From the NCBI GenBank assembly GCA_030613065.1, contig JAUWMQ010000018.1:1-32478 (forward strand): a DNA stretch of 32,478 bases. Direction: 5' to 3'. This stretch comes from Candidatus Aegiribacteria sp. (GTDB taxonomy: Bacteria > Fermentibacterota > Fermentibacteria > Fermentibacterales > JCC-6). The position numbers and the translations under genes are program-made. A model generated the notes under the pieces. That model was not told where the DNA came from. It saw only the letters and a program-made list of their open reading frames with translations, and did not search any database. The number at the start of each line of letters is the position of its first letter. Position 1 is the first letter of the stretch. Positions 254 to 19,361 of this stretch are shown piece after piece.

Positions 254-254
254 T
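208..254. repeat. Perfect 10-bp inverted repeat just after cas2
   Basis: The arms AATTGCGAAC (208-217) and GTTCGCAATT (245-254) are exact inverted copies separated by 27 bases. The right arm touches the cas2 stop codon. No clear T-run follows on the minus strand, so it is not an obvious intrinsic terminator. It could be a leader protein-binding site or an mRNA 3'-end hairpin. Confidence 0.6.
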
Positions 255-547
255 CATAGAATTAACGCATCTGATTCGAGATTGAGAGTCTTTTTTGTAC
301 CATGGTGTTCAACTTTCCGTTCCCAGTTCTTACCAAGGTAATAGAACCTTAAACTGTCTTCTGATGGATTAAGAATATTCATCAGTTTGTTTTGCATGGC
401 TACCCATTGTGCAGGATCAACAATGCACTCAAATACGGAGTTCTGTACACGTTGACCGTAATCCAAGCAAACCTTTGCCACATGTCTTAATCGCCGCCGC
501 CCAGCCTTATCGATTGTTGAAACATCATAGCTTACTAGAACCATCAT
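254..547 (-). CDS. cas2: CRISPR-associated endonuclease Cas2 (type I-C)
   Basis: Cas2 is the dimeric scaffold of the Cas1-Cas2 spacer-integration complex. The protein is 97 residues and opens MMVLVSYDVST, the usual first beta strand with the conserved aspartate. It continues with the RRLRHVAKVC helix and VQNSVFECIVD. Length and motifs match the family. A much longer open frame extends upstream to 739, but the start was put at 547 because GGAGG (560-556) sits 8 bases upstream. The next ATG (544) is 11 bases from it. The gene follows cas1 after 16 bases and ends the operon next to the leader. The assignment is secure; only the first codon is in slight doubt. Confidence 0.95.
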   Translation of the reverse strand: MMVLVSYDVSTIDKAGRRRLRHVAKVCLDYGQRVQNSVFECIVDPAQWVAMQNKLMNILNPSEDSLRFYYLGKNWERKVEHHGTKKTLNLESDALIL

Positions 548-563
548 GTTAAATACCTCCGGG

Positions 564-1595
564 CTACTTCCATATGAAGGGTGGATAAGCTTCCAGATCT
601 CCACGTAGATGACGTGCAAGGAGCAAGGCTTGCAAATGTGCCAGAAGCCCAACTTTTGTTTTTTCACAGAGATAGGGGTGAGTGATTTCTTCCTGTTTAC
701 GTTTTTGCCAGGAGATAAGAAGCTTTTTGCGAGCTTCATCTTTCATCGTTACCGCACCCCCGAGAGAATCAATGAAATCAGATGCTTTTATCTGGCAACG
801 ATTAATCAGCGAAAGAACAAGACGATCTGCAAGAAATGATCGAAATTCCTCCATAAGATCAAGCGCCAGACTTGGCCTGCCCGGTCGGTCTGTATGCAGA
901 TACCCAACACAGGGGTCTAACCCAACTCCTTCGAGGGCGGAGCGGCAATCATGTACCAGGAGAGTGTAGACGAACGAGAGAAGTGCATTGACAGGATCGA
1001 GAGGAGGACGTCGATTGCGACCAGTATAAGAGAAAGCTTCTTCTTTGATCGTGATGAGTTGCGGAAATGCGGCGAAGTATGAAGAAGCCGCTTCACCTTC
1101 GATCCCGCGGAGGGTTTCGATTGGAGCTGGTTTCTCCAGCCGCCGTAAGTATTCGGTAAGGTGGGTTTCAGCAGTTGCTAATTTTCGACCATCCGATTTA
1201 TCGGCATGATCGCGAAGAGCGCGCCGAATCACTGTACGTGAGTTGGCAAGCTTGCCAACTAGAAAATGACGTGCAATATCCGCACTTGCTTCCGGCTTAT
1301 CAGCAATACGGTATTGTTTGCGTCGCAGAAGTACATTACCGGAGACAGGTCCCTGGATACGGGCGAGGAATTTTCCATATTCGGAAAGAAAAGATACGGC
1401 TACATTGTTTTCCGCACAATGGTACATAAGATAGGGGCTCATGCTTACTGCACCGAAACAGATAATTCCATCCAGTGTGTGGATTGGTATGCGCAGTTTG
1501 TTTTCCTTGTCGACCTTGACTACAACAGACTGCCCCTCTTTGTGAAGATAGGCATTCTGGGTGGTGATGTAGAGGGTGTTGAGATGCTTTTTCAT
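564..1595 (-). CDS. cas1: CRISPR-associated endonuclease Cas1 (type I-C)
   Basis: Cas1 is the integrase that inserts new spacers at the leader end of the array. The 343-residue protein has the N-terminal beta domain (LNTLYITTQNAYL, then DGIICFG) and the helical catalytic domain. Expected metal ligands are the glutamate in LRGIEGEAA (near residue 166), the histidine in GYLHTDRPG (near 234) and the acidic residue in LALDLMEEFR (near 246). All are present, so it looks active. The ATG at 1595 was chosen over the GTG at 1604 because AGGAG (1608-1604) lies 8 bases upstream and its ATGA overlaps the cas4 stop, implying translational coupling. Confidence 0.96.
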   Translation of the reverse strand: MKKHLNTLYITTQNAYLHKEGQSVVVKVDKENKLRIPIHTLDGIICFGAVSMSPYLMYHCAENNVAVSFLSEYGKFLARIQGPVSGNVLLRRKQYRIADKPEASADIARHFLVGKLANSRTVIRRALRDHADKSDGRKLATAETHLTEYLRRLEKPAPIETLRGIEGEAASSYFAAFPQLITIKEEAFSYTGRNRRPPLDPVNALLSFVYTLLVHDCRSALEGVGLDPCVGYLHTDRPGRPSLALDLMEEFRSFLADRLVLSLINRCQIKASDFIDSLGGAVTMKDEARKKLLISWQKRKQEEITHPYLCEKTKVGLLAHLQALLLARHLRGDLEAYPPFIWK

Positions 1596-2227
1596 TCTAA
1601 ACACTCCTGTAAATATCTTGAGACAGTCCTGTGTTTTCTAGGCATGCAGATTTCATGAAGAGAACAAGCCCCGCATTTCTTGGAATTGTATTCTGCAGCG
1701 GGGGTCTTTCCAGATTGGATAAGCGCATGAAGATTCCGTGCAGTTTGCTCTGTTTCTGCACGAAGTGCACTATCGAAAACCACCACCTGCCGACGCCGTG
1801 GCTGTCCATAGAAAATGGCTCCTTCTGGTATTTCAGTATTCAGCATTTCTTCCAGACACAGTGCTTGAGCGCAGAGCTGTACCCAATCGCAATGGCTGGG
1901 TTTGGGACGCCCTCGTTTATGTTCAACAGGATATACTATACCAAGAGAGTCAGGATTTGGATTTTTAGAATTCGGATGAAACTCGATCGCGTCTGCTTTC
2001 CCGATCAAGCCAAGTTGAAGCGACCTGAGTGGAACGGCGTATTCAATACGCACTCCGTCTCGTGTTTTGTGTTCCCGACGGTCAACGCGCTCATGCTGTG
2101 CTCGTCCTTCAGCAGTGAAGCGGTTTTCTACCCATTGCTGCTCAATGTGGATCAGCGCACACTGCCTAGGACAGTAGATATAGTGTTGCAAAGCGGACAA
2201 GGGGAGGAGGTCGGTTTCTGAATACAT
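1592..2227 (-). CDS. cas4: CRISPR-associated exonuclease Cas4
   Basis: Cas4 trims prespacers and checks their PAM before Cas1-Cas2 integration. It is a RecB-type PD-(D/E)XK nuclease with an iron-sulfur cluster. The 211-residue protein shows an N-terminal YCPRQC cysteine motif and nuclease motifs GKADAIEF and VEHKRG. A QLCAQALCLEE segment corresponds to the family's Q-rich motif. The C-terminal cysteine cluster KKCGACSLHEIC completes the Fe-S site. The start is uncertain: the ATG at 2227 puts the first motif at the usual distance, but its ribosome site is weak. A GTG at 2266 adds 13 residues, though a GGAGGG is almost touching it. The gene overlaps cas1 by 4 bases and follows the nuclease gene after about 60. 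Confidence 0.93.
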   Translation of the reverse strand: MYSETDLLPLSALQHYIYCPRQCALIHIEQQWVENRFTAEGRAQHERVDRREHKTRDGVRIEYAVPLRSLQLGLIGKADAIEFHPNSKNPNPDSLGIVYPVEHKRGRPKPSHCDWVQLCAQALCLEEMLNTEIPEGAIFYGQPRRRQVVVFDSALRAETEQTARNLHALIQSGKTPAAEYNSKKCGACSLHEICMPRKHRTVSRYLQECLE

Positions 2228-2290
2228 CAGATAACATTTCCCCGATTCTTCCCATTTTTCATACACACCCTCCGGCTACCCGATTCGGAT

Positions 2291-3352
2291 TCATTCCTTT
2301 AGACCATATTTTCTTATCGCTTTTTCTACGGATTCACACCATGTGACCAAGGATTCAATTTCACCTTCTGACAGCTTTCGAGTGATATTACACTTGAGTT
2401 CCTTCCCAGCAGGGACGAACAGCCCAGTGGCTTCTGCCTGTTCCAAGAGAACTTTGATCACATTTTCCGGTACGGCTGCTTTCCTCTCAACACCACCAAC
2501 ATCATACGATGATGTACGGAGAGTTTGCTTGTATACAGAGTCTGGCGGATATGCAAAGCAGATAGCGACATGAGTACCCTTTATATCGACATTAAGAGAA
2601 AACCCCTTTGTTCCCCAGTGAATTGGCATCGATTTGTTTCTTGCCAGTTCAAGAATCCGAGTAAAAACCAGTCTGCCGTTTTCGTCTGCTGACGCAAGGA
2701 AGGTATCTTCTGTTACCACTGGCAAGGATCCGGAAACTACATAGGTTGGCTTTCCAGTTTCTTTTCCCACTACTATTTCCTGTGAGAAAAGACGGGTACC
2801 TCCATTAGCTCGGAAGAAAGTGAACTCGACGCAAGTGACCCTAATACCTTTGTTTCTGAGGAAGGAAGCTGTTTGACGAATCTCTGGGGTTACATGCTGG
2901 CCAATAATTACGATTCGTTGTTTTTTGTTGAAGGCTATTGCTTCGTCATAACCAAGTTCGAAAAACATACGGTGATGTTTGGCAAGGTTAAGTGATTCGT
3001 CGTTTAAGTAAGACTGGAGGATTCTTTCAAGTTGAATTATATCAAGCATCTCCGCAAAAGATACATACTCAAGAGATTGAGCGATTGTTTCGCGTGGAGT
3101 TCTGTCTCGCTTGAGTTCAACCACCACTATATTGCCTTCTCTGTCGAGACCAAGAAGATCAATGAATCCTCCCAAGTTGGTAACAACTTGTCGTCCAATA
3201 ATAAGAACATTCCCATTTTCAACAATTCCATCTGGATTCGACTCTAGCCACTCTTCAAGAATAGCTTCCTCATGATCAACTTTGAAAGGTGTCTGAAGGT
3301 ACTCATTGAATTTGCCGTTAGATTGTATGCCAAAGACTCTCATGTCTCTCAT
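2291..3352 (-). CDS. NucS/DUF91-like PD-(D/E)XK nuclease embedded in the cas operon
   Basis: The 353-residue protein has an endonuclease fold of the NucS (DUF91) type in its N-terminal half. GGFIDLLGLD (catalytic aspartate about residue 65) is followed by VVVELKRDR (E79, K81) and AQSLEY (Q92). This is the D-ExK-Q pattern of active PD-(D/E)XK enzymes. The C-terminal half (from about 215) has a predicted alpha/beta segment that I do not recognise; it resembles DUF5655-like tails only loosely. NucS proteins act on branched or mismatched DNA. Such a gene is not a standard type I-C component, yet it lies in the same direction between cas7 and cas4 with gaps of about 73 and 63 bases, so it is probably co-transcribed. 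A role in spacer acquisition or target processing is inference. ATG codons at 3352 and 3343 are both possible; neither has a strong ribosome site. Confidence 0.8.
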   Translation of the reverse strand: MRDMRVFGIQSNGKFNEYLQTPFKVDHEEAILEEWLESNPDGIVENGNVLIIGRQVVTNLGGFIDLLGLDREGNIVVVELKRDRTPRETIAQSLEYVSFAEMLDIIQLERILQSYLNDESLNLAKHHRMFFELGYDEAIAFNKKQRIVIIGQHVTPEIRQTASFLRNKGIRVTCVEFTFFRANGGTRLFSQEIVVGKETGKPTYVVSGSLPVVTEDTFLASADENGRLVFTRILELARNKSMPIHWGTKGFSLNVDIKGTHVAICFAYPPDSVYKQTLRTSSYDVGGVERKAAVPENVIKVLLEQAEATGLFVPAGKELKCNITRKLSEGEIESLVTWCESVEKAIRKYGLKE

Positions 3353-3425
3353 TTCTTATCCCGAACTTCTAAGATTGTGCGGGGAGTGCTATGGGTAACA
3401 AGCATTCCTACCGTGAATTACTCAG

Positions 3426-4268
3426 TCAGAAACCATCAATGATTTCTGGATTCAGACCGACAAGTGAATCAAGCTCTTTGGAATCAAAAGAACCATCTGG
3501 ATTTAATGAAAGGCTCCTGTGAACTTTAGCCGATGAATACTGTCCATGGGGACAATTATGATCCCACCAAACTACCTTAAGAACTTCCATACTCCCTTCC
3601 GGGCGAGCTGAGGATGCGTCATTTTCAAAAAGCTTTGGCAGTATATTCTTAATGGCTAGGGCATCTTCATCGTCAAAGCCAGTTTTTGTTGCAAGCTGGG
3701 GGTTCATGCTGCCATAAAATACGTAAACTCCTTCATCTACGCGATGCTTCATACCCATTGTATCGGACCCTTTTTTGGTACCGTCACCTTCTCCACTAAC
3801 ACTCTTGGTAATCTGAGTGCTTGTGATATCCACGGGAGATAAAGAAAAGGCTGTATGAATCGAAACGGGGCCTCTTATGCCGATTGATACACCTGAACCT
3901 TTTTTATCTCCAGAATACGCAAAAACCTGACCGAATGCTCTAACATCAAACCATTTTTCGCAGGCTAATTTTGCATTTACCTCGGAAGATTCCTGTAATT
4001 TCAGAACAGTCTCAGCGCGTTCACGGAGATTATTGCAATCATCAAGTTTGTTGTCATCAGACTGGACGAAGATATCATATTTATAATTCTTGTCTTCTCT
4101 GACTTCCATTAAGCGATTTCTGATTTTCCGTTTGATACAAACATCTGAAACTTCCCCTATCCTGTTATAACTTGTGCGAGGCCGATTTCCGTTCAAAGGG
4201 TCACCATTAGGGTTGGCATTCTTAACTTTGAAAACGACGGCAAAATCAATTTTATTCGCTAGGCTCAT
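3426..4268 (-). CDS. cas7: Cascade backbone protein Cas7 (Csd2, type I-C)
   Basis: Cas7 polymerises along the crRNA spacer and forms the backbone of the type I-C Cascade complex. The 280-residue length is typical for Csd2. The signature NANPNGDPLNGNRPR stands near the N-terminus, followed by DVCIKRKIRNR and the DVRAFGQVFA segment of the RRM-like core. The glycine-rich IGIRGPVSIHTAFS and the late VWWDHNCPHGQ also fit. The ATG at 4268 was preferred over 4274 because AGGAG (4280-4276) is 7 bases from it and only 1 base from the other. The start lies 17 bases inside the cas8c end, which suggests coupling and high expression of this multi-copy subunit. Confidence 0.96.
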   Translation of the reverse strand: MSLANKIDFAVVFKVKNANPNGDPLNGNRPRTSYNRIGEVSDVCIKRKIRNRLMEVREDKNYKYDIFVQSDDNKLDDCNNLRERAETVLKLQESSEVNAKLACEKWFDVRAFGQVFAYSGDKKGSGVSIGIRGPVSIHTAFSLSPVDITSTQITKSVSGEGDGTKKGSDTMGMKHRVDEGVYVFYGSMNPQLATKTGFDDEDALAIKNILPKLFENDASSARPEGSMEVLKVVWWDHNCPHGQYSSAKVHRSLSLNPDGSFDSKELDSLVGLNPEIIDGF

Positions 4269-4653
4269 TTCCATTCTCCTCTCTATTTGTTGTGTTTTCC
4301 TGAGTTGATTTGAAAAGTTCTACTCGCTGGCAATGGAATCCCAAAAGGAATTCTCCTGACAACGGATCATCAGATGCATAACCGGAAACGTCGGTGAACA
4401 AACCATGAATTTCATCGAGTTCTTTATCATATTTATTAGTCCTGTTGAGTCTGGCCTTATAGGGTACTAAAGCAAGCTCGATTGTTTTCCAGGTGTTGCA
4501 TGGACGTTCCGCAAATCGTTGCATTAACTTTGTTGCATTAGTCTGCCTGCTTTCATTTGAAAGTTTGAGCGCATACCCCTCAAGACAGTCTGCTACCGCA
4601 AGCAGTCGCCCATAGAGATAGTCTCTGGTTTTTCGTTCTCGATTAAGTCCCAT
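4252..4653 (-). CDS. cas11c: Internally initiated small subunit Cas11c within cas8c
   Basis: Type I-C systems lack a separate small-subunit gene and make Cas11c from an internal start near the 3' end of cas8c. That is established for other members. Here a strong AGGAGG (4667-4662) stands 8 bases before an in-frame ATG at 4653. It would yield a 133-residue protein that begins MGLNRERKTRDYLYG and is mostly helical. Such a good ribosome site in the middle of a gene, at the expected place, is direct support. Cas11c would occupy two copies in the Cascade belly and help hold the non-target strand. It shares the cas8c stop codon. Confidence 0.85.
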   Translation of the reverse strand: MGLNRERKTRDYLYGRLLAVADCLEGYALKLSNESRQTNATKLMQRFAERPCNTWKTIELALVPYKARLNRTNKYDKELDEIHGLFTDVSGYASDDPLSGEFLLGFHCQRVELFKSTQENTTNREENGNEPSE

Positions 4654-6204
4654 GGTGAAGTCCTCCTTTTCTTTGAAATAATATCTATAAAGCCCGCAAG
4701 CGATCCCCAAATTTTTCTGCCATGCCCAATCAGGCAAATTTTGTCTTTGGGTCGCTTTTTTTATGCATGAATAAACAATATACCAAGGTAGTGACGTACC
4801 CTCGATAATGCAGGGCATTATCCGCTCAACAGTTGCTTTCTTCAAGTTGTCATCGACCTTTACCAGATCGCCGTCTCTTGTTCCGTATGCTGCTTGCGCG
4901 ATGTCTTTAGGAGCAGGTGCTCCATAAAAGATTTTGTCTTTTGAAAAACGCTGAAGCCAGGCACATCCTTTATGCCAGGATTTAAGCCGATTTAGAAAAC
5001 CAGAACCAGTAAGTTCTCTGTAATAAGTTACTGCCATGCGACCTTTAGTAGCTGAGTCGATACCCATTATAACAATTTGATCTGTTGCATCCAGCTTTAC
5101 GGAATAACCCGAAAGATACTTAGAAAGGCGAACGCTGAATTCCTGAGCAGTGAATCCGGAAGATATTTCCTCTGTATTTTTCATCTCAGTTTCAATTGAA
5201 ATGTCACTCAATAAGTCGTCACTGTCTGCCAGCGGATCTGGAACCTTTACGCCTGAAACCGCCCATGCGACAAAAGCCAATTTAGGCTTATTTTGTACGT
5301 AAAACACATTTTTTCCTTGTCGAGCTATTAACCAGCGCAATGCATTATGAGCTTTTTGGGCCATTGCGACGTCAACTCCGCAAACTTGATACTCATCCGT
5401 AAAACGCCCGCGGTAGGTAAAACCTGAAGTGTCATTTGATGAAATAAGCTTTGCGCCATCGTTATCGGATCTAATCATGCGAGGATATTGTTCAGTCTGA
5501 TATTTTGGTTCTTCGGGAGTTGATTCTCCGGAAACATAGCAAAAAATATTTTTGCTTCGTGTGCTCAGATAATAATCAATCCAGCTTTGCCATACAGATT
5601 TATCGTATTGAAGTTCTGAGGATGGCTCTCCTGGGGTTTCAACACTCCAGCGGACAAATATATCCGTTTGTTTCTGACCCTGCCCGAGTGTTTTGAAAAT
5701 ATCCGGCTTATCATTCCGTTTGCCTTTCCATGAGGGGAGCAATTTTTCATTTTCATCCACATGAAGCACTTTCTCAGATACTAAATCTGAAATTAATGTC
5801 CCTTTGGATATGTAACGATAGACGGCTTTTACTTTTTGGTTTGCATATTCAGATTCCGCCCATTCTAACAGCAAATCTTTGTATTCTTCACAATAATGCT
5901 TTTTGGAACCACCATATTGTTTGTATTCAGAAGCAATATATTGAAGTTGATCTGCTAGAGGATGAGGGGCACATCCATTGGTTCTTCCCGCAGACTTTTC
6001 AGTTGCAGGTAATATTGTCTTCGCAATATCTTCTGGTATAACAAATGCCCGTCTAAATGAACCATCTCCGTCCAGTATTATTTCAACATGTGCCCGTTTT
6101 TTCGTTGTATGGAAAAGCGGCAAAAGCGGTGTTTTGTCCTTCTTATCCCCAATTTTATCCGCGTTATTCTCGTAGGTTTGATAAAGTTTTTCAATCCAGC
6201 TCAT
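4252..6204 (-). CDS. cas8c: Cascade large subunit Cas8c (Csd1)
   Basis: Cas8c recognises the PAM and recruits Cas3 in the type I-C complex. The 650-residue product opens MSWIEKLYQTYENN, a common Csd1 start. It carries a segment around IVIMGIDSATKGRMAVTYYRELTG and a C-terminal helical domain matching Csd1 architecture. The ATG at 6204 has GGAGG (6218-6214) 9 bases upstream and was chosen over an upstream in-frame start at 6222. It overlaps the cas5 end by 14 bases and the cas7 start by 17. The family is poorly conserved, so identification rests on size, the N-terminal signature and position between cas5 and cas7. The last 133 residues double as Cas11c. Confidence 0.93.
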   Translation of the reverse strand: MSWIEKLYQTYENNADKIGDKKDKTPLLPLFHTTKKRAHVEIILDGDGSFRRAFVIPEDIAKTILPATEKSAGRTNGCAPHPLADQLQYIASEYKQYGGSKKHYCEEYKDLLLEWAESEYANQKVKAVYRYISKGTLISDLVSEKVLHVDENEKLLPSWKGKRNDKPDIFKTLGQGQKQTDIFVRWSVETPGEPSSELQYDKSVWQSWIDYYLSTRSKNIFCYVSGESTPEEPKYQTEQYPRMIRSDNDGAKLISSNDTSGFTYRGRFTDEYQVCGVDVAMAQKAHNALRWLIARQGKNVFYVQNKPKLAFVAWAVSGVKVPDPLADSDDLLSDISIETEMKNTEEISSGFTAQEFSVRLSKYLSGYSVKLDATDQIVIMGIDSATKGRMAVTYYRELTGSGFLNRLKSWHKGCAWLQRFSKDKIFYGAPAPKDIAQAAYGTRDGDLVKVDDNLKKATVERIMPCIIEGTSLPWYIVYSCIKKATQRQNLPDWAWQKNLGIACGLYRYYFKEKEDFTMGLNRERKTRDYLYGRLLAVADCLEGYALKLSNESRQTNATKLMQRFAERPCNTWKTIELALVPYKARLNRTNKYDKELDEIHGLFTDVSGYASDDPLSGEFLLGFHCQRVELFKSTQENTTNREENGNEPSE

Positions 6205-6928
6205 TTTGAAGCGCCTCCTCATTAAGCCCGATGGATTGGGGAGGATTGGGAATCATTTCACGCACAAATTTTTTCATGGTGCATTCTTCTGGGCGGATAA
6301 ACTTGATGACTCCACTTTGCATAACCGGTTTCCAGAACCGACTGTGAAAATGATATTTCCCGTTTTCATCAGGCTTGCCATCTTCATCTGTTTTCCCTGT
6401 TTCATCTGGATAATCAAACCCATGAAACATGATACCGTAATCCAATCGATCAATGTCATCATAGGCACCGGATCCTTCTCCAAAATCGCATGGTTCAACA
6501 TACCCCTGACACTCTCGTGCGCCGAGAAAGACGTCCTGTCTCCCCCCTTTATCGATCATCCGTTTTGCAATCTGGAAATGTTTCCCATCAATACGATCTG
6601 CTGTCATATCTTCACGAAACAGATTCCACTCAAAGTGTGCCTTTACCTGATATTCGACATCCGCAAGATATGTGTACACCGCTAATGTATTTGCTCCTCC
6701 ATAATTCAGAGGCTTAACACTTTTGGCTTCTGTCTTTATCGGTTTCATTATCCGAACTTCATCAATTATCCAGATTATAGTAGGCTTCCAGTACACGGAT
6801 TTTAAAATCCCTTTTAATGCCTCGTATGTGGGGATGTGGTATGAACACTTTTCACCGCCCATTCTGGTCACGGGGTCGGTGAATAATGCATACCGTCCCG
6901 TTACTTTGAATTCGACAATATTTTTCAC
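6191..6928 (-). CDS. cas5: Cas5 (Cas5d type), pre-crRNA processing endoribonuclease
   Basis: In type I-C, Cas5 replaces Cas6: it cuts pre-crRNA in the repeat and caps the 5' handle in Cascade. The 245-residue protein has Tyr46, Lys116 and His117 (SVYWKP and DGKHFQ). These coincide in type and number with the catalytic residues described for Bacillus halodurans Cas5d, so it should be active. Other family features are the N-terminal FKVTGRYALFTDPVTR strand and KPLNYGG. An unusual acidic insertion at about 174-191 contains three degenerate copies of a D-E-x-G-K unit before KYHFHSRFWKP. The start is ATG, 10 bases past the cas3 stop. Confidence 0.95.
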   Translation of the reverse strand: MKNIVEFKVTGRYALFTDPVTRMGGEKCSYHIPTYEALKGILKSVYWKPTIIWIIDEVRIMKPIKTEAKSVKPLNYGGANTLAVYTYLADVEYQVKAHFEWNLFREDMTADRIDGKHFQIAKRMIDKGGRQDVFLGARECQGYVEPCDFGEGSGAYDDIDRLDYGIMFHGFDYPDETGKTDEDGKPDENGKYHFHSRFWKPVMQSGVIKFIRPEECTMKKFVREMIPNPPQSIGLNEEALQNELD

Positions 6929-6938
6929 TTTAGCCTCC

Positions 6939-9386
6939 TTATACGTTTAAAAGTTCCATAGGCGTAACCAGCTCCATGCTCACGCCGAAATCCTTGCTGT
7001 AGTATTGCATATCCAAATGCCAAATTTCGCTAACATCATATGTCTGAAACAGGGCTTTTTCATCATGGAGTTTTTGGATCATATAGGGGAAAATATTTAC
7101 AGAATACTGCTGGGCGGATTTTAAAAGTGCCCTTTCCTCATTCAAAGATATCTTGGCTGAAAGTTTTGCAATGATCGATTTTGCCTCTTCATTGAAAGGC
7201 ACAATAATTGCTTCTGTTGGCGCATCGATCACACGGAAATATTTCCCAGCAGTCTTGAATGATTGCCTCAAGTATAAAGAGGGACTTCCGTGTTTTCTTT
7301 TATGTTCGTCAACAGATTGCTGATTTGTTGATAACAGGGATAGCAAATCATCATCACGTCCCAGAATATTCCTGGCAATTGGATAGCTCATTTCATACGC
7401 TCTTTTGTAAAAATAGTACTTATAAAATCGCTCCATAGCTTTGTGGCCGATAATATCGTTATGGAAGTAAGCGGGATTCTGCTTGTACTCATCAAGTATA
7501 CGTAATGTCACATCTTGAGCTATCCTGATTTCGGGCAATTTGTCGAGATTTTCATTTCGAAGATTGATGATTTCCACTATTCCCAAGTCGTTATGTCGAC
7601 CGTTGCGATTACAGCGTCCTGCCGCCTGAGCTATAGAATCCAAGCCTGCCAAACAACGAATGACTGCGCCAAAATCTACGTCTACCCCTGCTTCAATCAA
7701 CTGTGTGCTGATGCAGACAATGGGTTTAGAATCCGATGGATCAAGGCATTCAAGCATTTTTCCTAATATTTCTTTCCGATGCTTGGGACACATATTTGTA
7801 CTGAGATGAAATACTTTTTCTGTTAGGCTATTGCAGAATTCATATAAACGTTTCGCATTTGTTTTTGTATTTGTAACGACAAGTACACTTCCCTTGTCAT
7901 GTAAAAGTACTTTTACACGTTCACTCAACTCTTCTTCCGTCCATCCCTTGCTTTTTTGGCAATCTAGCACCTTCACCCGCTTTAGCGCATTAAAAAGTGG
8001 AGGATAATCCACAATTTCCATAGCATCAGAATACGGCACAGCACCTTTAGACGGTTCAACACCATGCAGAAGCGGCTGGGTTGCCGTACAAAAAACAACA
8101 GTTGTTGAGCAAAAATTGGTCAAGAAATTGATTGCGTTGTTAAAGAGGTGAACGGTTTTGATTGGCAGTGTCTGGATTTCATCAAAAATTATAACAGATT
8201 TTGCAAGTTGATGCATACGACGCACATTGCGTGTTCCGCCTCCGAAAAGCGTTTCCAGAAATTGGACGGACGTGGTGAATACGATAGGGGCATCCCAATT
8301 CTCAGACAGAATAGACAGAATACGATTTCGATATGTATCTTTTTCAGGCACAAGATTTGAGTGGTACTCCAAAACAATATCCTTGGATATGCTATCAAAT
8401 ATTTTAGCCACTTTTGATGCATTCTGATCAATTATCGAGGTATATGGAATAACATAGATAATGCGTTCAAGTTCATGTTCTTTTGCATGGTGGAGGGCAA
8501 ACCGAAGGCTGGAGAATGTTTTACCGCCGCCTGTCGGAACTGTTAAATAGTATAGTCCCTGTTTATCACTTGCCCGTTGCCTGCAAGACGATGAAATCTC
8601 ACTTCTTTTCTTATCAATCTCACTTACAACTTCAAAGGATATTTGTTCAAAACAATATATCAGCTTTTGCCAATCCGGATAATTCCCAAGATAACGCAAT
8701 TTTGCATCGTCCGGATTTTCGAAATTGGCTGTGCTTAATCGGTCCGCATCCACTAAACTACTGAAAAGGAAGCGAAGAAGAAGTCCTTTCAAGAATTGTC
8801 GTACAGGATCGCTGAAAAGTTCGTGCATTTGGCTTATCATCCTTCTTAATTGTTTAAGTCGGTCCTCGGATTTGATAAGTTCAGTTATGTGTTCTGAAAT
8901 TGCAGGGTCAATTTTTTCTTGGACTTCACAATAATGCGTTTTGCTTAAATCCTTATTCAATCTCGCCGAAAATTTGTCTTCACCAGAGATATCGAACACA
9001 TCAATTAAACCGGAATGATGTGATAGAACGCATAAAGATACTATTTCAGCACTCAGCTTGTTGATCTTGACTGTATCTTTTAAGGCCTCGTATATCCATT
9101 GGGCTCCAGCAGTGGAGTGGTCGATTTTACCTCTTAATCTCTCTGCATCTACATAGTATTTATCACCCGGACGAAGTATTCCAACTGAGGATTTTATGTA
9201 ACATTGAAATTCAAAACTGTATTTTCCCAAATCATGAAGGAGTCCTAACAATTCTCCGAGAAGATCCAGTCCGATTTTACCAGCGAATTTTTTTGCAAAT
9301 AAAGAAGTCTCAACTAAATGCGTTATAACGCTATGATTAGCAGAGTCGACATTGCGATAATGTGCCAGATAGGACGTGGATGTCAT
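6939..9386 (-). CDS. cas3: Cas3 nuclease-helicase (complete)
   Basis: Cas3 unwinds and shreds target DNA after recruitment by Cascade. The 815-residue protein has an N-terminal HD nuclease: H23, H51-D52 in LLHDLGK, H90 in DHSTAGA, H123-H124 and D213 in SSLVDADRL. A superfamily 2 helicase follows, with Walker A TVPTGGGKT (282-290), DEIQ (402-405), CTATQPLL and the motif V/VI stretch ending QAAGRCNRNGR. All key motifs are intact. The ATG at 9386 has only a weak AAG-type ribosome site. It begins 20 bases after an HD-only Cas3 fragment whose sequence is quite different, suggesting that this copy came from another lineage. Confidence 0.95.
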   Translation of the reverse strand: MTSTSYLAHYRNVDSANHSVITHLVETSLFAKKFAGKIGLDLLGELLGLLHDLGKYSFEFQCYIKSSVGILRPGDKYYVDAERLRGKIDHSTAGAQWIYEALKDTVKINKLSAEIVSLCVLSHHSGLIDVFDISGEDKFSARLNKDLSKTHYCEVQEKIDPAISEHITELIKSEDRLKQLRRMISQMHELFSDPVRQFLKGLLLRFLFSSLVDADRLSTANFENPDDAKLRYLGNYPDWQKLIYCFEQISFEVVSEIDKKRSEISSSCRQRASDKQGLYYLTVPTGGGKTFSSLRFALHHAKEHELERIIYVIPYTSIIDQNASKVAKIFDSISKDIVLEYHSNLVPEKDTYRNRILSILSENWDAPIVFTTSVQFLETLFGGGTRNVRRMHQLAKSVIIFDEIQTLPIKTVHLFNNAINFLTNFCSTTVVFCTATQPLLHGVEPSKGAVPYSDAMEIVDYPPLFNALKRVKVLDCQKSKGWTEEELSERVKVLLHDKGSVLVVTNTKTNAKRLYEFCNSLTEKVFHLSTNMCPKHRKEILGKMLECLDPSDSKPIVCISTQLIEAGVDVDFGAVIRCLAGLDSIAQAAGRCNRNGRHNDLGIVEIINLRNENLDKLPEIRIAQDVTLRILDEYKQNPAYFHNDIIGHKAMERFYKYYFYKRAYEMSYPIARNILGRDDDLLSLLSTNQQSVDEHKRKHGSPSLYLRQSFKTAGKYFRVIDAPTEAIIVPFNEEAKSIIAKLSAKISLNEERALLKSAQQYSVNIFPYMIQKLHDEKALFQTYDVSEIWHLDMQYYSKDFGVSMELVTPMELLNV

Positions 9387-9406: not shown

Positions 9407-10072
9407 TCATACCACACTCTCCGAACTCGCAAGAGTAGGCAGAAGGATGATATGATGCAAACAGTGTATTGATGGAAAATAATATTGATCCCTGATGTCC
9501 GCCGCATTCCTACTTTTGGATGTTTCCGTATAGAGATAGTCAGCATCCACCAGACAGGAAAAAAGCATCCGGACAAAAAACTGTAATTGAAAGCCAAACC
9601 TTTCAATATCAGAGGGAAAAGGCCAACCGTCAGGAAACTTAGGAGTAATAACCGGAACCTGAACCGTAGGATGATCTTTCCGCAGTCGTGATTCCAATGC
9701 CGATGCAGAAGAATCACTCCAGTTCGGCAAGCCACCATGATGCCCAGCTATGCAGTAAGCCAACAACTTCCCGGCTTCTTTTGAATGCTCATACAGCAAC
9801 TGCGCACCAACATTGGCATGGGATGGATGCCCAACATAATAATTGGAAAATTCATCTATTACACCGTTAGCTTTTCGTAGGAAAGCCTGCCATGGAAGGG
9901 TTCCCTTACCGAGATCATGATTATCACCTAGTATTTGCGCCCAGCATTTTGCATTAAACACTCCTGCAAACCCTGTCGCTAACTTCGCAACGGAACTTAA
10001 GTGTTCTTCAAGAGGTTGCCATTTCTCAGGCGGTTGATTTTCCAGGCTGTGCGCGTAAAATCTGCGGCTCAT
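9407..10072 (-). CDS. HD-domain-only Cas3 (Cas3''-like), possibly a truncated older cas3
   Basis: The 221-residue product matches the N-terminal HD nuclease of type I-C Cas3. It opens FYAHSLENQPPEKWQPLEEHL, then has NHDLGK (H52-D53), SHANVGA (H85), AGHHGG (H111-H112) and SCLVDADYL (D176). Every expected metal ligand is visible. The frame stops about where the helicase would begin, and no helicase motif follows before the complete cas3 20 bases on. It is the first gene of the operon with an AGGTGA-type ribosome site. It may be the remnant of an ancestral cas3 replaced by recombination, or a functional stand-alone HD nuclease. The intact ligands argue against long-term decay. Confidence 0.8.
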   Translation of the reverse strand: MSRRFYAHSLENQPPEKWQPLEEHLSSVAKLATGFAGVFNAKCWAQILGDNHDLGKGTLPWQAFLRKANGVIDEFSNYYVGHPSHANVGAQLLYEHSKEAGKLLAYCIAGHHGGLPNWSDSSASALESRLRKDHPTVQVPVITPKFPDGWPFPSDIERFGFQLQFFVRMLFSCLVDADYLYTETSKSRNAADIRDQYYFPSIHCLHHIILLPTLASSESVV

Positions 10073-10344
10073 TTATCACCTATATTTTCTATTGAAATAA
10101 AGATGTTTTATGAACACTATAATATATTTGATGCTGCAACAAGGTTGAGTTTTCCGCGAACCTGTTTACTTATATGGTGCATTTATTCAAATATATTTCG
10201 CTCTATTCTTCTATTCCCTGATATAGAAGCAATAACGATCAGCGCGAACCCATTACAAATATCCATTCGTGATTTCACACATCCATTAATTCAACTCGAC
10301 AGTTTCATCAATTCGTTCCGAGGGGATTTAAACAAAGGATTGTA
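10073..10344. promoter_or_regulatory. Intergenic region upstream of the cas operon
   Basis: These 272 A+T-rich bases lie between the stop of the large GNAT gene and the first cas gene. The minus strand has a weak promoter candidate: TTGTTG (10142-10137), a 15-base spacer and TATAGT (10121-10116). A plus-strand open frame crosses the region but shows no recognisable protein features. I see nothing else here. Confidence 0.35.
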
Positions 10345-13323
10345 TCAGGGTTTATCGGTCAGCTGTGCTCTGAAAATCCGGGAAAGAGCTTCTTCCTCCT
10401 CGCAGTTCCCGAAGATCCAGAAAACCTCTATCTCCCGTTTTCGGTCATTGGTGTTGAAAAAGGCTATATGACACCCACTGTCCGCATAATCCTCAGCGAA
10501 AAGTATACCTTCACTAACGGAATGCGCTTCGATGAAACCCTTTCCCGGAGTCTCCACCCGGCCCCAGCGACCGGTATCGAACCACGCCCCGGCATGCTCC
10601 CTGCCCTGCTTCAGCAGAGGCTCGCTCTGCGCTGTAAGAATCACCTTGTCATGCTCTCCTCCAGGAGTAAGAAATCCCCTTACATCGAATTCACCACTAA
10701 GGTAGACCCCGCGCATGGCTTCCGGGCAGAACCAGGTTTTCAGAAGTGGTACATCCGGCAGCATGGAGACTCTCCATGTAAGATGCATCGAACCGAACTT
10801 CTTGTGATCCACGATCCAGTTCATCTCCCAGCCTTTTTCAGGCAGACCGGCGGTGATGGTCGAAAATTCCTTCCAGCTGCAGTCGACTATATCGAGTTTA
10901 AAGGGTTTATTCCTTCTGTCCGTAATTCTGGGGTGGATGCCTCCGAACCAGGGTTTTTCCCAGGCGAAATCGGAGGGTCCCGGATGGGAAGACATGAGAT
11001 ATTCAACTCCGTCCAGGCGCAGACTGTACACATGTCCGAACTCCGAAGGATCGATCAGAGCCTTCAGCCTGGCATTTGATATTGCGAGAATTCCGTCCTT
11101 TTCGGTAAGCTCGGCAGCAGGTGCGCTGCCGCTGATAATTCTCACGGGATAAACAAGTTCCCTGCCTGCGATACCAAGCGAAATCTCTGCGGCACCCGAT
11201 TCAGGAACCGCTGCCTTAATGAATCTGCCGCTGCTTACCGTGCCTTCTGCTTCAAGGGATTCTCCTATGGTTATGGTTCCTTTGCGTTTTCCAAGGAGGT
11301 TGTGAGAAAGTTTCAGTTCGCAGCCTTCCCCCATTACAGGCTCGATGTTGTGATCGAAGAAACCTGTCCTTTCAAGAGCAGGGCCGGTATTCCAGCCCAG
11401 GATCCTCGCATCACTGAGCAGGTCTTTCATATCTCCTCTTGAAAGAAGCACTCTGAATGGAGGAGAGTGCTTTCTTTCCCCCGGAGTAATTAATATGTCT
11501 TCGGTTTCTGGTCTGCCATACTGCAGCTTCTTCCACAAGGGGAACCAGGCCATGAGGGTACTTTTGCGGCTGGATAGCGCAAGCCAGGGGGCAGCAAGCA
11601 CTGCCGTGTCCCTGGGGTAATCTTCCGAAGCATCCGGAATCTGGTTGTACACCTCCGGGCAGTCGAAAAGACCTTCTTTCAGCGGAATAATCCTTCTTCC
11701 GGCAAAAAAGGGCATACCTCCGCCCCATCTTGCCGCGAAGCGGACCTTCTGGTCTGAAGAAGACTCGTTGAGAACGCAGCTGCTTACTTCCGCGAAACCC
11801 GCGGGATCAATTCTGTACCTGATCTCATGAGTAAGCCCGGGTCTTGAAGGCCAGATTGATGCAGCATAAATTTCATTATCTCTGATGGAAATGTCGTACA
11901 GCTGGTGAGGAAGGTCGGAATTCCAGTACGGCGGCCCCGCGGACATTCCTATGTATGCAGACACCTGTTCCATGTCATTTTCACCCGGTATCCATATGGT
12001 TCCCATCGCTCCAGTCCTGGATACTCCCAGAGTGATATCCTTTCCTGCTATAACAGCTGTTTTCCGGGTAAGGGCAGCTTCGGGGGCACCTGTGAAGGAA
12101 CCGCAGATAAGGATGATCTTTTCCATCGCTCCCGCTTTTCCGTCATGGAGCAGGATTAACCCCAATTCGTTCAAACCGCTTGAAAGGTCGGGCAGGTGAA
12201 TGCGTATCTGCTGGAAAATGCAGTCTTCCAGCGGGTAAGTCTCGTTCAGATAAATCTCTCCGCCAAGACTTGCCTTCAGTCCGAAGGAATCCGATTCAGC
12301 CAGATTTTTAATGTCCAGAGTCAGTTCCTTCTGTCCGGGCGCGATTCTGCGTACCGGCGGCGAGAGAATAGAAACAGGTTCCTCAGCTCTTATACCTATT
12401 CCGATCTCAAGTGGATTGTCACCGGGTAGAACGGTGGATACCCTCGGGGATCTGTCACTGTCGGGAACAGGTACTTCCACGGGTTCCGGAATGACATCGA
12501 AGCCCATTGAGGCCTCTTGAAGCGTCAGCGATTCTGGCGCAGTAAGGTATTTATGCGATTCTATCTGCAGTTCCTGCGGAAGGGAATTTCCCCGGATACT
12601 GACCCTGACAGCCTTTCCGTAAAAGAATTTTTCACCTTCTCTTCTTACTGAGACAGACCGTTCAGTGGTTTCCAGCGATGAGAGTATCCTTCCCCTTCGG
12701 TCGAATTCAGCCCTGAAGCTGTTATCTCCGATTCTGAACAGGTAATTGAAAACTTCCCGCCCCGTTCCTGTTCTCTGCTCATCAGGCTCAACTTCCAGTT
12801 CCCGGATGAAGCAGTCGTACCAGTCCTTGTCCCCCAGGAAATTCCTGAATTCGGTCCTTCCAAGAAGGAAAGGCATGTAATTCTGCATATAGACCATACT
12901 GTCAGGCACCCAGAAGAACCCTGTCTTCTTGTAAAGGGGCATTGCCTTGAGGTTTGCAGGCCATGTGTGCAGGTCTATCCTGTAATATCCATCTTCGGCT
13001 GTTCTTTTTACCGCATCCAGCAGGAGTTTCTTGCCCAGTTTCCTGCCATGAAGGTCGGATACCACATTCAGCAGAGCAACATATGCTGCATCAGCCTCTC
13101 CACCGTAGGGGGTTGTCCGGCAGTAGCCCACAACTCTGTCACCCTCCATTGCAAGCACAGTGTACAGCTTGCCTGAAGAATTCTCTTCCATCTCAATGCT
13201 ATCTGCAGTGAATTCGGATGCTCCAAGAAATCCAGGAGGCCAGCCCTCTCTGCTCTCGGACCACATTCGGGCAACGCCTTCGGCATGGAGCTTCGTATAT
13301 ATTTCAAAGCATATTTCTTCCAT
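10345..13323 (-). CDS. Large GNAT N-acetyltransferase fusion protein
   Basis: The 992-residue protein starts with a GNAT acetyltransferase of about 150 residues. VALLNVVSDLHGRKLGKKLL carries the R-x-x-G-x-type acetyl-CoA loop, and LYKKTGFFWVPDS is the usual final strand. The remaining ~840 residues are unfamiliar and appear mostly beta. One stretch near 740-800 (LDGVEYLMSSHPG, then WFGGIHPRITDRR) resembles galactose-mutarotase-like beta-sandwich domains, which would hint at carbohydrate binding. There is no signal peptide, so it is probably cytoplasmic. Substrate is unknown. The gene stands alone, with 126 bases to the upstream PRPP-synthetase-like gene. Confidence 0.8.
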   Translation of the reverse strand: MEEICFEIYTKLHAEGVARMWSESREGWPPGFLGASEFTADSIEMEENSSGKLYTVLAMEGDRVVGYCRTTPYGGEADAAYVALLNVVSDLHGRKLGKKLLLDAVKRTAEDGYYRIDLHTWPANLKAMPLYKKTGFFWVPDSMVYMQNYMPFLLGRTEFRNFLGDKDWYDCFIRELEVEPDEQRTGTGREVFNYLFRIGDNSFRAEFDRRGRILSSLETTERSVSVRREGEKFFYGKAVRVSIRGNSLPQELQIESHKYLTAPESLTLQEASMGFDVIPEPVEVPVPDSDRSPRVSTVLPGDNPLEIGIGIRAEEPVSILSPPVRRIAPGQKELTLDIKNLAESDSFGLKASLGGEIYLNETYPLEDCIFQQIRIHLPDLSSGLNELGLILLHDGKAGAMEKIILICGSFTGAPEAALTRKTAVIAGKDITLGVSRTGAMGTIWIPGENDMEQVSAYIGMSAGPPYWNSDLPHQLYDISIRDNEIYAASIWPSRPGLTHEIRYRIDPAGFAEVSSCVLNESSSDQKVRFAARWGGGMPFFAGRRIIPLKEGLFDCPEVYNQIPDASEDYPRDTAVLAAPWLALSSRKSTLMAWFPLWKKLQYGRPETEDILITPGERKHSPPFRVLLSRGDMKDLLSDARILGWNTGPALERTGFFDHNIEPVMGEGCELKLSHNLLGKRKGTITIGESLEAEGTVSSGRFIKAAVPESGAAEISLGIAGRELVYPVRIISGSAPAAELTEKDGILAISNARLKALIDPSEFGHVYSLRLDGVEYLMSSHPGPSDFAWEKPWFGGIHPRITDRRNKPFKLDIVDCSWKEFSTITAGLPEKGWEMNWIVDHKKFGSMHLTWRVSMLPDVPLLKTWFCPEAMRGVYLSGEFDVRGFLTPGGEHDKVILTAQSEPLLKQGREHAGAWFDTGRWGRVETPGKGFIEAHSVSEGILFAEDYADSGCHIAFFNTNDRKREIEVFWIFGNCEEEEALSRIFRAQLTDKP

Positions 13324-15145: not shown

Positions 15146-15544
15146 ATGGATCGCAAAACAAGAATTCTGATTGGGAAACCCGGCCTGGACGGGCATGATC
15201 GTGGAGCCAAGTATATAGCGAGAGCCCTGAGGGATGCCGGTATGGAAGTTATTTATACCGGAATACGTCAGACACCTGAAGCGATCGCCAACGCAGCCAT
15301 TCAGGAAGATGTTGACTTCGTAGGCCTCTCCCTTCTTTCCGGAGCCCATAATCACCTCTTCCCTGAAGTAGCCAGGCTTCTTAAGGAGAAGGGTGGATCG
15401 GATATAATCCTTTTCGGTGGCGGTGTTATCCCGGAGGAAGATATTCCCGGACTTAATAAGGCGGGGTTCAAAACCATATTCGCGCCGGGAACCTCTGCAG
15501 CCGAAGTTGTGAATTTCATTGAGCAGGAAATCCAGACTCGCTGA
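15146..15544 (+). CDS. B12-binding small subunit of methylmalonyl-CoA mutase
   Basis: This 132-residue protein is the stand-alone cobalamin domain of a split methylmalonyl-CoA mutase, which interconverts succinyl-CoA and (R)-methylmalonyl-CoA. The motif [11 protein letters not shown] contains D15-x-H17-x-x-G20, in which His17 is the lower cobalt ligand. [12 protein letters not shown] and ILFGGGVIP complete the Rossmann-like fold. The ATG at 15,146 follows a GGAGG with 4 intervening bases. The large catalytic subunit is not in this window. First gene of the operon that continues through meaB and the decarboxylase subunits. Confidence 0.92.
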
Positions 15545-15578
15545 ACCAGCAGCAGAATTCACCAGGCCGGAGGTAGAC

Positions 15579-16544
15579 TTGCTTTCCAGCAAGGCAGACG
15601 ATTTCGCGCGTAAGGTGCGAAGCTGTGACACCAGAGGACTGGCGAGAGTTCTTTCAATGGTTGAAAACGGTCATCCCCTTGCTCACTCGATATTGCATTC
15701 CCTCTACAATCCTGAAAGATCATGCCTTACCATCGGGATCACCGGCCCTCCAGGAGGGGGGAAAAGTACACTTACAGATCGCCTCATAACGTACTGGAGA
15801 GGGAATGGCAATAAAGTCGGTGTGATTGCCGTTGACCCATCCTCCCCTTTTTCCGGAGGAGCCCTTCTGGGCGACAGGATCAGGATGCAGGACCACGCAT
15901 CTGATCCGGAAGTGTTTATCCGAAGCATGGGAAGCAGGGGGCATCTCGGTGGGGTATCGGGAACAACGAGAGACGCTATAGAAGTTCTTGCCGCAGCATC
16001 CTATGACCCGGTGATCGTTGAAACCATCGGGGTTGGTCAGACGGAGGTTGAAATCGCCTCCCTTGCGGATATAACCCTTCTGGTTCTGGTACCAGGCCAG
16101 GGTGATGAGGTACAGACCATGAAGGCCGGGATCATGGAGATCGGAGATATAATAGTGCTTAACAAGGCTGACAGACCCGGCATAGAACAGCTGGAAATGT
16201 CGGTAAGCGCCAGCTTTGAACTCATTCCCGATCAGGCTGAAAGGCCCCCGGTTATCAGATGTTCCGCACAGACAGGGGAGGGTCTTGATAAACTTACGGA
16301 TGCTATTGTCAGCTGTGCTTTTTCGGGAACAGGACGGAAGGCAACCGCGCGAAAGCGGACAACCCTGATACTTGGCAGTATTATCCGGGAAAAGGGAAGG
16401 GAACTTGCTCGAAAACTGGTTTCAGACAGATATGGCAGTGTTGAAGAGGCGATAGAATCTATTCTTGAGGGTAAGACAACTCCCTATGAGATAGGCGAAG
16501 TGCTTTCCGGATTTCTCGAGAATAAACAGGAGAATAGAGAATGA
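15579..16544 (+). CDS. meaB: MeaB-type GTPase, methylmalonyl-CoA mutase chaperone
   Basis: MeaB (ArgK family) is a G3E GTPase that loads and protects the B12 cofactor of methylmalonyl-CoA mutase. Visible motifs are Walker A GPPGGGKSTL, AVDPSSPFSGGALLGDR, the switch-like VETIGVGQTEVE and the guanine-specificity NKAD. The TTG at 15,579 was chosen because GGAGG (15,569-15,573) lies 5 bases upstream, giving 321 residues. A TTG at 15,519 would overlap the mutase subunit and add 20 residues without a recognisable ribosome site. The stop overlaps the next start in an ATGA. Its place between two mutase-pathway genes confirms the role. Confidence 0.93.
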   Translation: MLSSKADDFARKVRSCDTRGLARVLSMVENGHPLAHSILHSLYNPERSCLTIGITGPPGGGKSTLTDRLITYWRGNGNKVGVIAVDPSSPFSGGALLGDRIRMQDHASDPEVFIRSMGSRGHLGGVSGTTRDAIEVLAAASYDPVIVETIGVGQTEVEIASLADITLLVLVPGQGDEVQTMKAGIMEIGDIIVLNKADRPGIEQLEMSVSASFELIPDQAERPPVIRCSAQTGEGLDKLTDAIVSCAFSGTGRKATARKRTTLILGSIIREKGRELARKLVSDRYGSVEEAIESILEGKTTPYEIGEVLSGFLENKQENRE

Positions 16545-16963
16545 GTGTAAAAGGGATTGATCACATCGGTATAGCAGTAAAGAGCCTGGAGGAGTCAATA
16601 CCATTCTACAGAGACATCCTCGGGTTGAAATATCTTGGGATAGAAGAAGTCCCTTCACAGAAGGTCCGTGTGGCTATGTTTGGTGTTGGCGAAGCCCGGA
16701 TAGAACTCCTTGAGCCAACTTCGGAAGAGAGTCCGATCGCGAAGGCAATTGAGAAAAGGGGAGAAGGATTACACCATATTGCCTACTCGGTTGAAAGCGC
16801 TTCCGCCGAAGTAGACTCCTTAACGCGCAAGGGCGTAAGAATGATAGATACTACTCCGAGGGAGGGAGCGGGAGGAACCAGAATTGCCTTCGTTCATCCT
16901 GCTGCCAGCGGGAAAGTTCTGACGGAATTGTGTGAACATCCGAAAGTTGAAAAGGAAAACTAA
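16541..16963 (+). CDS. mce: Methylmalonyl-CoA epimerase
   Basis: The epimerase interconverts (R)- and (S)-methylmalonyl-CoA, linking the mutase to the decarboxylase. The 140-residue protein is a two-repeat VOC (glyoxalase-fold) metalloenzyme. It opens [19 protein letters not shown], has [10 protein letters not shown] in the second repeat and ends with KVLTELCE. His8, His79 and Glu129 are the likely metal ligands by comparison with the family. Length is typical. Start overlaps the meaB stop by four bases and the next gene begins directly after its stop. Confidence 0.94.
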
Positions 16964-16964
16964 A

Positions 16965-18515
16965 ATGAGTTCTCTTGAAAAGGCTGACAAACTCCACGCT
17001 CTTAGAGAAAAAGCGTTTGCGGGCGGTGGCGAGAAAAATATTGAGAAGCAGCATGAGAAAGGCAAGCTGACCGCAAGGGAAAGAATAAGCCTTCTTCTTG
17101 ATGACGACAGCTTCGAAGAATTCGATATGCTTGTTACTCATAGATCTACCAGTTTTGGACTGGAGAAGAAAAAGATCCCTGGAGACGGCGTTGTCACCGG
17201 TTACGGAACCATAGACGGCAGGCAGGTGTACGTCTTCTCTCATGATTTTACCGTATTAGGGGGCAGTCTTTCGGAAACCTTTGCCGAGAAGATATTGAAA
17301 ATCATGGATATGGCCGCCATGAACGGCGCCCCTCTGATCGGGCTCAACGATTCCGGCGGAGCAAGAATACAGGAAGGAATAGAGAGTCTTGCCGGATACG
17401 GGAAGATCTTTCTGAAGAATGTGCTCTATTCCGGTGTTATTCCACAGATTTCAGCTATACTTGGTCCCTGCGCCGGAGGAGCCGTTTACAGCCCTGCCAT
17501 AACTGATTTTACGATAATGGTTGAAGGTATAAGCTACATGTTTGTTACTGGCCCCACAGTTGTAAAGGCTGTAACCGGGGAAGAAGTCACGAAGGATCAG
17601 CTTGGGGGACCTGGAATTCACAGCAAACGCAGCGGTGTATGCAGCCTTGTGTGTGAAGACGAACAGGAAGCTCTTCTTCTTATTAGAAAACTCATCAGCT
17701 ACATGCCTCAGAACAACATGGAGGACCCCATCAGAGTGCCATGCACTGACCCGCCTGACAGGATGGAAATGTGGCTTGACGAATTCATTCCCGATAATCC
17801 GAACAAGCCCTACGAAATGCGCACGATAATTGAAGCCATTGTGGATAACGGTGAGTTTCTCGAGATACAGCGCTCCTTCGCTCCTAACATCATTATAGGA
17901 TTCGCAAGGATGAACGGGCATTCCATTGGAATAGTAGCGAACCAGCCCTCGTACCTTGCCGGGGTGCTGGATAACGACGCCTCAGTGAAGGCTGCCCGTT
18001 TTGTCCGTTTCTGTGACGCATTTAACATCCCTGTTGTAACCCTTGTGGATGTACCCGGTTTCATGCCCGGAACGGCGCAGGAATATGGAGGGATAATCAG
18101 AAACGGAGCGAAGCTTCTCTTCGCATTTGCCGAGGCGACAGTGCCCAAGATAACAGTGATAACGAGGAAAGCCTACGGTGGAGCATACGATGTAATGAGT
18201 TCGAAGCATATCAGGGCGGACATTAATTACGCCTGGCCCACGGCGGAGATAGCCGTTATGGGGCCAGATGGGGCCGTTGGGATCATCTTCCGCCGCGATA
18301 TTGAGGAGGCCAAAGATCCAGTTGCCAGGAAGAAGGAGCTGGTGAGCCAGTACCGGGACAAATTTGCGAACCCCTACGATGCTGCTTCAAGAGGTTATCT
18401 GGATGATGTGATAATAGCGTCAAACACAAGGTTCCGTATAATCAAAGCCCTGGAAATGCTTGCGGGAAAACGACAGACCATCCCTCCCAAAAAGCATGGG
18501 AATATTCCATTATGA
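16965..18515 (+). CDS. mmdA: Methylmalonyl-CoA decarboxylase alpha subunit (carboxyltransferase)
   Basis: The alpha subunit moves the carboxyl group of (S)-methylmalonyl-CoA onto biotin, releasing propionyl-CoA. It is a 516-residue acyl-CoA carboxyltransferase. The first crotonase-like half has [22 protein letters not shown] and [12 protein letters not shown]. The second half has [25 protein letters not shown] and [13 protein letters not shown]. The same family includes propionyl-CoA carboxylase beta; the adjacent membrane beta and gamma subunits favour the sodium-pumping decarboxylase. The ATG at 16,965 has AAGGA 8 bases upstream; an earlier in-frame start at 16,932 would overlap mce. The stop overlaps the next gene in ATGA. 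Confidence 0.95.
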
Positions 18516-18916
18516 CGTGGGCTGGAGTTATGATCATTGGGGTTCAATTAACTGCTGCCGATCTTGGAGGTGGCCTTGGAATAGCCCTGGTAGGCATGAT
18601 AACCGTGTTCACAGGGCTCGTAGTGCTGGCATTTCTGCTTCCTAACCTTGAGCATTGGGTTGAAGACGGATTCGGCCTGAACAGAAAGAAGAAGGATAGA
18701 TCATCTCAGCAGGATACTGATAGAACCATGACCCTGGAGGAAGTAGCTGCGGTAACTGCAGCAATTCATGCTCATTTCTGTCTTCTTGATCAGGTGGAGA
18801 ATATGAAACTGACCTGGGAAACCCATGAGACGCCCTATACTCCGTGGAGACTTGCGGGGAGGGCTGAACACATTCAGGAATCAGGATCGCTGCATAACAG
18901 AGTCAGGAGTCGCTGA
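18512..18916 (+). CDS. Decarboxylase gamma subunit (OadG family membrane anchor)
   Basis: OadG-type gamma subunits hold the alpha subunit to the membrane beta subunit. The 134-residue protein has one N-terminal membrane segment (about residues 17-43, from [15 protein letters not shown] to LVVLAFLLP). A hydrophilic tail with a basic NRKKKDR patch follows. The C-terminus is longer than in simple gamma subunits and carries a helix ([15 protein letters not shown]) resembling tails of related OadG proteins. Conservation in this family is low, so the call leans on topology and position between mmdA and the biotin carrier. Confidence 0.85.
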
Positions 18917-18917
18917 A

Positions 18918-19358: not shown

Positions 19359-19361
19359 TTG

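Follow-up and report, generated by a model that had tools for sequence, protein, structure and literature searches.

A DUF91/NucS-core nuclease gene between cas7 and cas4 of a type I-C CRISPR-Cas operon, at a recurrent insertion point

The type I-C operon and its additional gene

The window, that is, the whole stretch of 32,478 nucleotides analysed here, carries a complete type I-C operon whose genes all lie on one strand in the order cas3, cas5, cas8c, cas7, nuclease gene, cas4, cas1 and cas2, followed by a CRISPR array that runs off the contig edge (Table 1). An earlier note on this DNA had described a nuclease gene standing in line with cas7 on one side and cas4 on the other, and the gene is real. 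A gap of 73 nt separates it from the end of cas7 and one of 24 nt from the cas4 ORF, the 24-nt spacer holding a GGAGG ribosome site for cas4. Since it is co-directional with its neighbours and closely spaced, the gene is probably co-transcribed with the operon; a search for a promoter or terminator of its own returned no more consensus hits than expected by chance. The fourth residue of the ORF, M4, is the first residue in all close homologues, and translation therefore probably starts there. Comparison of the gene with its homologues gave pN values of 0.17–0.24 against saturated pS, and dN/dS between two of the homologues was about 0.15; the nuclease gene is under purifying selection.

Table 1. 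Coordinates of the operon, of the nuclease gene and of its parts in the window.
Feature	Positions	Strand	Remarks
Complete CRISPR repeat, contig edge	43..75	+	array runs off the window
cas2	254..547	-	
cas1 (I-C)	564..1604	-	3.4e-159
cas4 (I-C), first adaptation-module gene	1592..2266	-	1.6e-85
Stand-alone DUF91/NucS-core PD-(D/E)XK nuclease gene	2291..3352	-	353 aa; likely start 3343, 350 aa
C-terminal domain, residues 215-353	2294..2710	-	no Pfam family; mean pLDDT 95.9 (predicted)
Nuclease core, residues 1-198	2759..3352	-	PADLOC PDC-S11, residues 27-198; Pfam NucS_C, residues 29-98
Catalytic motif codons	3077..3160	-	D65 3158-3160; E79 3116-3118; K81 3110-3112; Q92 3077-3079
cas7 (I-C), last interference-module gene	3426..4274	-	PADLOC Cas7c 2.9e-92
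cas8c	4252..6222	-	
cas5c	6191..6928	-	
cas3 (HD + helicase)	6939..9386	-	

Several other origins or identities for the insert were considered. GC content was not informative as a sign of separate origin, the value of the nuclease gene (0.428) being near that of cas7/cas8c (0.416) and slightly off that of cas4/cas1 (0.48). A phage origin was rejected, as searching with the full-length protein returned a single distant phage match and no related viral contig; the C-terminal domain alone had no match in the phage and plasmid sets. CreTA guard modules, which sit inside cas loci (PMC9458426, PMC10097628), resemble the present arrangement in being non-cas elements nested in a cas operon. Their parts, however, are a toxin RNA and an antitoxin resembling a crRNA, whereas the cargo described here is protein-coding and varied, and a CreTA-like element was rejected after the CRISPR repeat proved to occur only once in the window when three or fewer mismatches were allowed. 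An Rfam scan of the window returned no structured RNA. Directly upstream of cas3, which has an HD domain of its own, lies a separate Cas3-type HD nuclease gene (9407-10072, minus strand; TIGR01596 cas3_HD, 75.6 bits, cut-off 43.45).

A DUF91-type core joined to its own C-terminal domain

Pfam NucS_C was matched on residues 29-98 (E = 4.7e-6; 27 bits, cut-off 24) and the NucS structure 2vld in the PDB at E = 2.8e-4 with the single sequence and 1.6e-8 with a family profile. In the alignment with Pyrococcus NucS (2vld), D65, E79, K81 and Q92 correspond to D160, E174, K176 and Q187, which bears out the complete D-ExK-Q site read in the earlier note; these residues are kept in the homologues, and mutants of the equivalent D, E and K of Sulfolobus NucS are catalytically deficient (PMC7736090). 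A strong match came from the PADLOC models of PDC-S11, which covered the nuclease at E = 2.5e-37 over residues 27-198 of 353 only and its homologues at 1e-36 to 1e-43, again in the nuclease half alone. By sequence, the protein is a predicted DUF91-core nuclease, probably of the PADLOC candidate defence family PDC-S11. Members of this family (PDLC04916 and relatives) share the nuclease half and a similar total length with the window protein, and the models leave its C-terminal half uncovered; the family is a guilt-by-association candidate for which no demonstrated function was found in the literature searched. Neither Pfam nor PADLOC matched the nuclease to the Cas4 family, the true cas4 being the next gene.

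The comparison with NucS/EndoMS (PF01939; PDB 2vld, 5gke) defines both the likeness and its limit. The two share a RecB-like core with the same D-ExK-Q residues, which in NucS is C-terminal; in the window protein, by contrast, the core begins at residue 21-29, the N-terminal DNA-binding and dimerisation domain of NucS (~110 residues) is absent, and a C-terminal domain of ~135 residues is present instead. Because the N-terminal DNA-binding domain is missing, the protein is not a NucS. The cutting of mismatched or branched DNA, named in the earlier note for NucS-type enzymes, is therefore not supported for this protein, and a repair nuclease of the NucS/EndoMS type with such substrates is improbable: the catalytic core is common to both, but the NCBIfam NucS equivalog, with a cut-off of 216 bits, scored only 39, matching profile positions 122-196 of 250, and the distribution of the gene (below) is patchy and accessory, unlike that of a repair gene. 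The full-length predicted fold also retrieved NucS/EndoMS (E = 4.6e-5), with weak matches to SduA of Shedu (prob 0.80) and HamA of Hachiman (prob 0.51). These two anti-phage PD-(D/E)XK proteins resemble the window nuclease weakly in core fold and, as an idea, in the combination of a nuclease core with an extra sensing domain; they have no sequence match to it and, unlike Hachiman, the window nuclease has no partner helicase.

For the C-terminal part, said in the earlier note to resemble nothing known, the search likewise matched no Pfam family, while the start of the domain had to be corrected to near residue 215. Its predicted structure was compared with the DUF1801/YjbR-like fold class, the best solved relative being a weak one, the DUF1801 protein 2oc6 (prob 0.72, TM 0.47/0.51, E = 0.29). 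The domain is an undescribed module that occurs beyond this nuclease: at 9965-11250 of record L052, with an HNH_2 endonuclease gene as neighbour, it is joined to a T5orf172/MUG113 domain of the GIY-YIG type, and in L051 it forms a short separate ORF of 140 residues. A further apparent stand-alone copy (L053) was rejected because L053 and L049 are the two halves of one copy divided by a contig break.

Distribution of the nuclease homologues

Within the set for the host's own phylum, a full-length copy was found in 1 of 42 genomes, namely the host itself. In the phylum to which the Chloroflexota record L003 belongs, 7 of 400 genomes had a full-length or near-full-length copy, as did 6 of 395 in the phylum of the Desulfonatronospira record L002; one further copy came from a denser sample, giving 14 other copies in all. 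Of these, one is interrupted by an in-frame stop and another is truncated at the end of its contig. No full-length homologue was found in 201 genomes of another phylum. The homologues stand alone in unrelated contexts in at least three lineages, and most of their neighbourhoods are not obviously defensive. Record L043 holds, at 1960-5940, a full-length homologue between two partial copies of itself, an apparent local duplication with decay.

As far as their contigs extend, several of them being short, I-C cas genes adjoin none of these 14 copies, and other CRISPR types near the homologues were checked in part only. When PADLOC was run on 75 neighbours of 13 copies, no Cas family appeared among the 25 most frequent matches listed. 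Conversely, none of 25 other I-C operons had a homologue near cas7. These two counts (0/14 and 0/25) disfavour a dedicated Cas accessory: the homologue survey, which the earlier note had proposed as its own test, found the family scattered and not tied to CRISPR.

The same counts bear on the proposal that the nuclease aids Cas4-Cas1-Cas2 in prespacer trimming or in the repair of integration intermediates. In its favour, the gene adjoins cas4 in line with the adaptation module and encodes a predicted DNA nuclease of Cas4's broad superfamily. The 25 other I-C operons, however, do without a homologue near cas7, mostly with a Cas4 of their own, and sister operons hold unrelated genes at the same position (below), so that the link to Cas4 and prespacer processing suggested in the earlier note is unsupported and a role in adaptation seems very improbable.

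The cas7-cas4 junction and its changing contents

I-C operons were collected by cas7 similarity, yielding 14 from the L002 phylum (345 genomes) and 5 from Chloroflexota (301 genomes); 6 new operons were added from an order picked because one member had cargo, which makes this subset biased. Junction lengths were measured in these 25 operons and the window, an insert being defined as 450 nt or more. Such inserts occupied 13 of the 25 readable cas7/cas4 junctions (12 of 24 without the window) compared with 3 of 113 junctions elsewhere (Fisher P = 3.7e-9, an optimistic value because the operons are related). None was found at cas3/cas5 (0/20), cas5/cas8c (0/25), cas8c/cas7 (0/26) or cas1/cas2 (0/20), and cas4/cas1 accounted for all three others (3/22). 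By sample, recognisable cas7/cas4 cargo genes were found in 6 of 14 operons of the even phylum sample, plus one fragment, in 5 of 5 readable junctions of the order-based sample, and in none of the Chloroflexota operons. The possibility that the nuclease is a chance insertion in one genome, raised in the earlier note, is thus too simple, the cas7/cas4 junction being a recurrent insertion point for varied defence-like genes. No report of a cas7-cas4 cargo slot or of NucS-type proteins in I-C loci was found in a literature search of mainly open-access papers. The three cas4/cas1 inserts are those of L099 (708-1751, RhuM-Fic), L081/L065 (near 3095-3889, with a Fic-like gene in L065) and L071.

Pfam searches identified much of the cas7/cas4 cargo: Fic in operons L073, L074, L098 and L100; RhuM together with Fic in L072 and L097, and RhuM in L098; and Bro-N twice in L072, in L098 and L102, and as a fragment in L075. 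Operon L099 carries a YhcG/DUF1016 PD-(D/E)XK nuclease with an opposite-strand PIN gene. A four-helix protein of the 23S_rRNA_IVP type was found in L079 and L066/L080 at scores under the family cut-off, and a copy in L071 was recognised by eye from its L079-like sequence. The L099 nuclease is a second case of a PD-(D/E)XK nuclease at the cas7/cas4 junction, here in a related I-C operon, and is of a kind labelled CAS-associated by one PADLOC model, but it belongs to a family unrelated to the window nuclease and has another domain layout. The cargo consists mostly of other single-gene defence candidates or toxin-like genes; RhuM and Doc/Fic domains have been proposed to serve as the toxins in multilevel defence loci (PMC3710099).

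Furthermore, 10 of 13 cargo proteins tested matched PADLOC single-gene candidates (PDC-S02, S04, S05/S23 or S13), whereas such candidates were matched by at most 5 of 53 control genes flanking the same operons; this enrichment may be partly circular, the candidates having perhaps been picked in part for nearness to defence genes. As Fic, RhuM and YhcG are also frequent among accessory genes, they might accumulate at any site that tolerates inserts.

The contents change between close relatives. The nearest operons to that of the window are L097 and L098, with cas5 87% and 80% identical, respectively, and the three form a clade in a Cas5+Cas7 tree (support 0.999); the junction holds the nuclease gene in the window, RhuM-Fic in L097, and Fic, Bro-N and RhuM in L098. 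With three different cargos in one clade, the contents turn over faster than the operon.

As defence-like genes of different kinds recur at this spot among related operons, an exchangeable add-on slot is suggested, and we hold with moderate confidence that the window gene encodes an autonomous anti-phage-type nuclease in such a cargo slot, between the interference and adaptation modules of the type I-C operon. The nuclease gene would have been inserted at the recurrent border between cas3-5-8c-7 and cas4-1-2 and would be transcribed with the operon; its PD-(D/E)XK core would provide metal-dependent DNA cutting, and the C-terminal domain may recognise a substrate or partner. The result would be a second defence layer, expressed with CRISPR-Cas yet independent of it.

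The chief competitor, which we consider rather unlikely but not negligible, is a neutral passenger: the cas7/cas4 border would tolerate inserts since neither module breaks, and the gene would bring the operon no benefit. The high variety of the cargo, the empty junctions of close relatives, the decayed fragments (the Bro-N fragment of L075 and remnants in L097) and the occurrence of the gene in a single genome of its own phylum sample would all fit a passenger. Against a passenger stands the purifying selection on the nuclease gene family; in addition, defence-candidate and toxin-like genes are strongly over-represented in the cargo relative to the flanks of the same operons, and several inserts are co-directional and packed tightly against cas4.

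A bolder extension of the cargo-slot reading, which we offer only tentatively and regard as doubtful, is that the interference/adaptation border is a selected plug-in slot, in which swappable single-gene effectors or toxins (NucS-like, YhcG, Fic, RhuM-Fic, Bro-N and IVP), frequently exchanged between close relatives, would be expressed together with CRISPR-Cas and serve as a backup or guard. Under selection of the slot, cas operons would amount to small defence islands in which recruited effectors take a fixed place in the transcript, reading the cas7-cas4 gap would be a practical route to new single-gene defence systems, and the locus would allow layered immunity to be tested. Were the slot no more than permissive, the gene should still not be annotated as a Cas accessory.

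Elsewhere in the window, genes at 15519-20570 (plus strand) encode a MeaB-type GTPase, a carboxyl transferase and the beta subunit of a Na+-transporting decarboxylase, which is consistent with a methylmalonyl-CoA decarboxylase cluster. Between 28658 and 30777, three direct repeats of ~49 nt, two of which extend to 112 nt, are spaced ~1 kb apart, with no Rfam match; ORFs near them encode a six-bladed propeller fragment and a TonB C-terminal domain. A possible remnant of a group II intron maturase (GIIM, just below the Pfam cut-off) lies at 31561-32118 on the plus strand.
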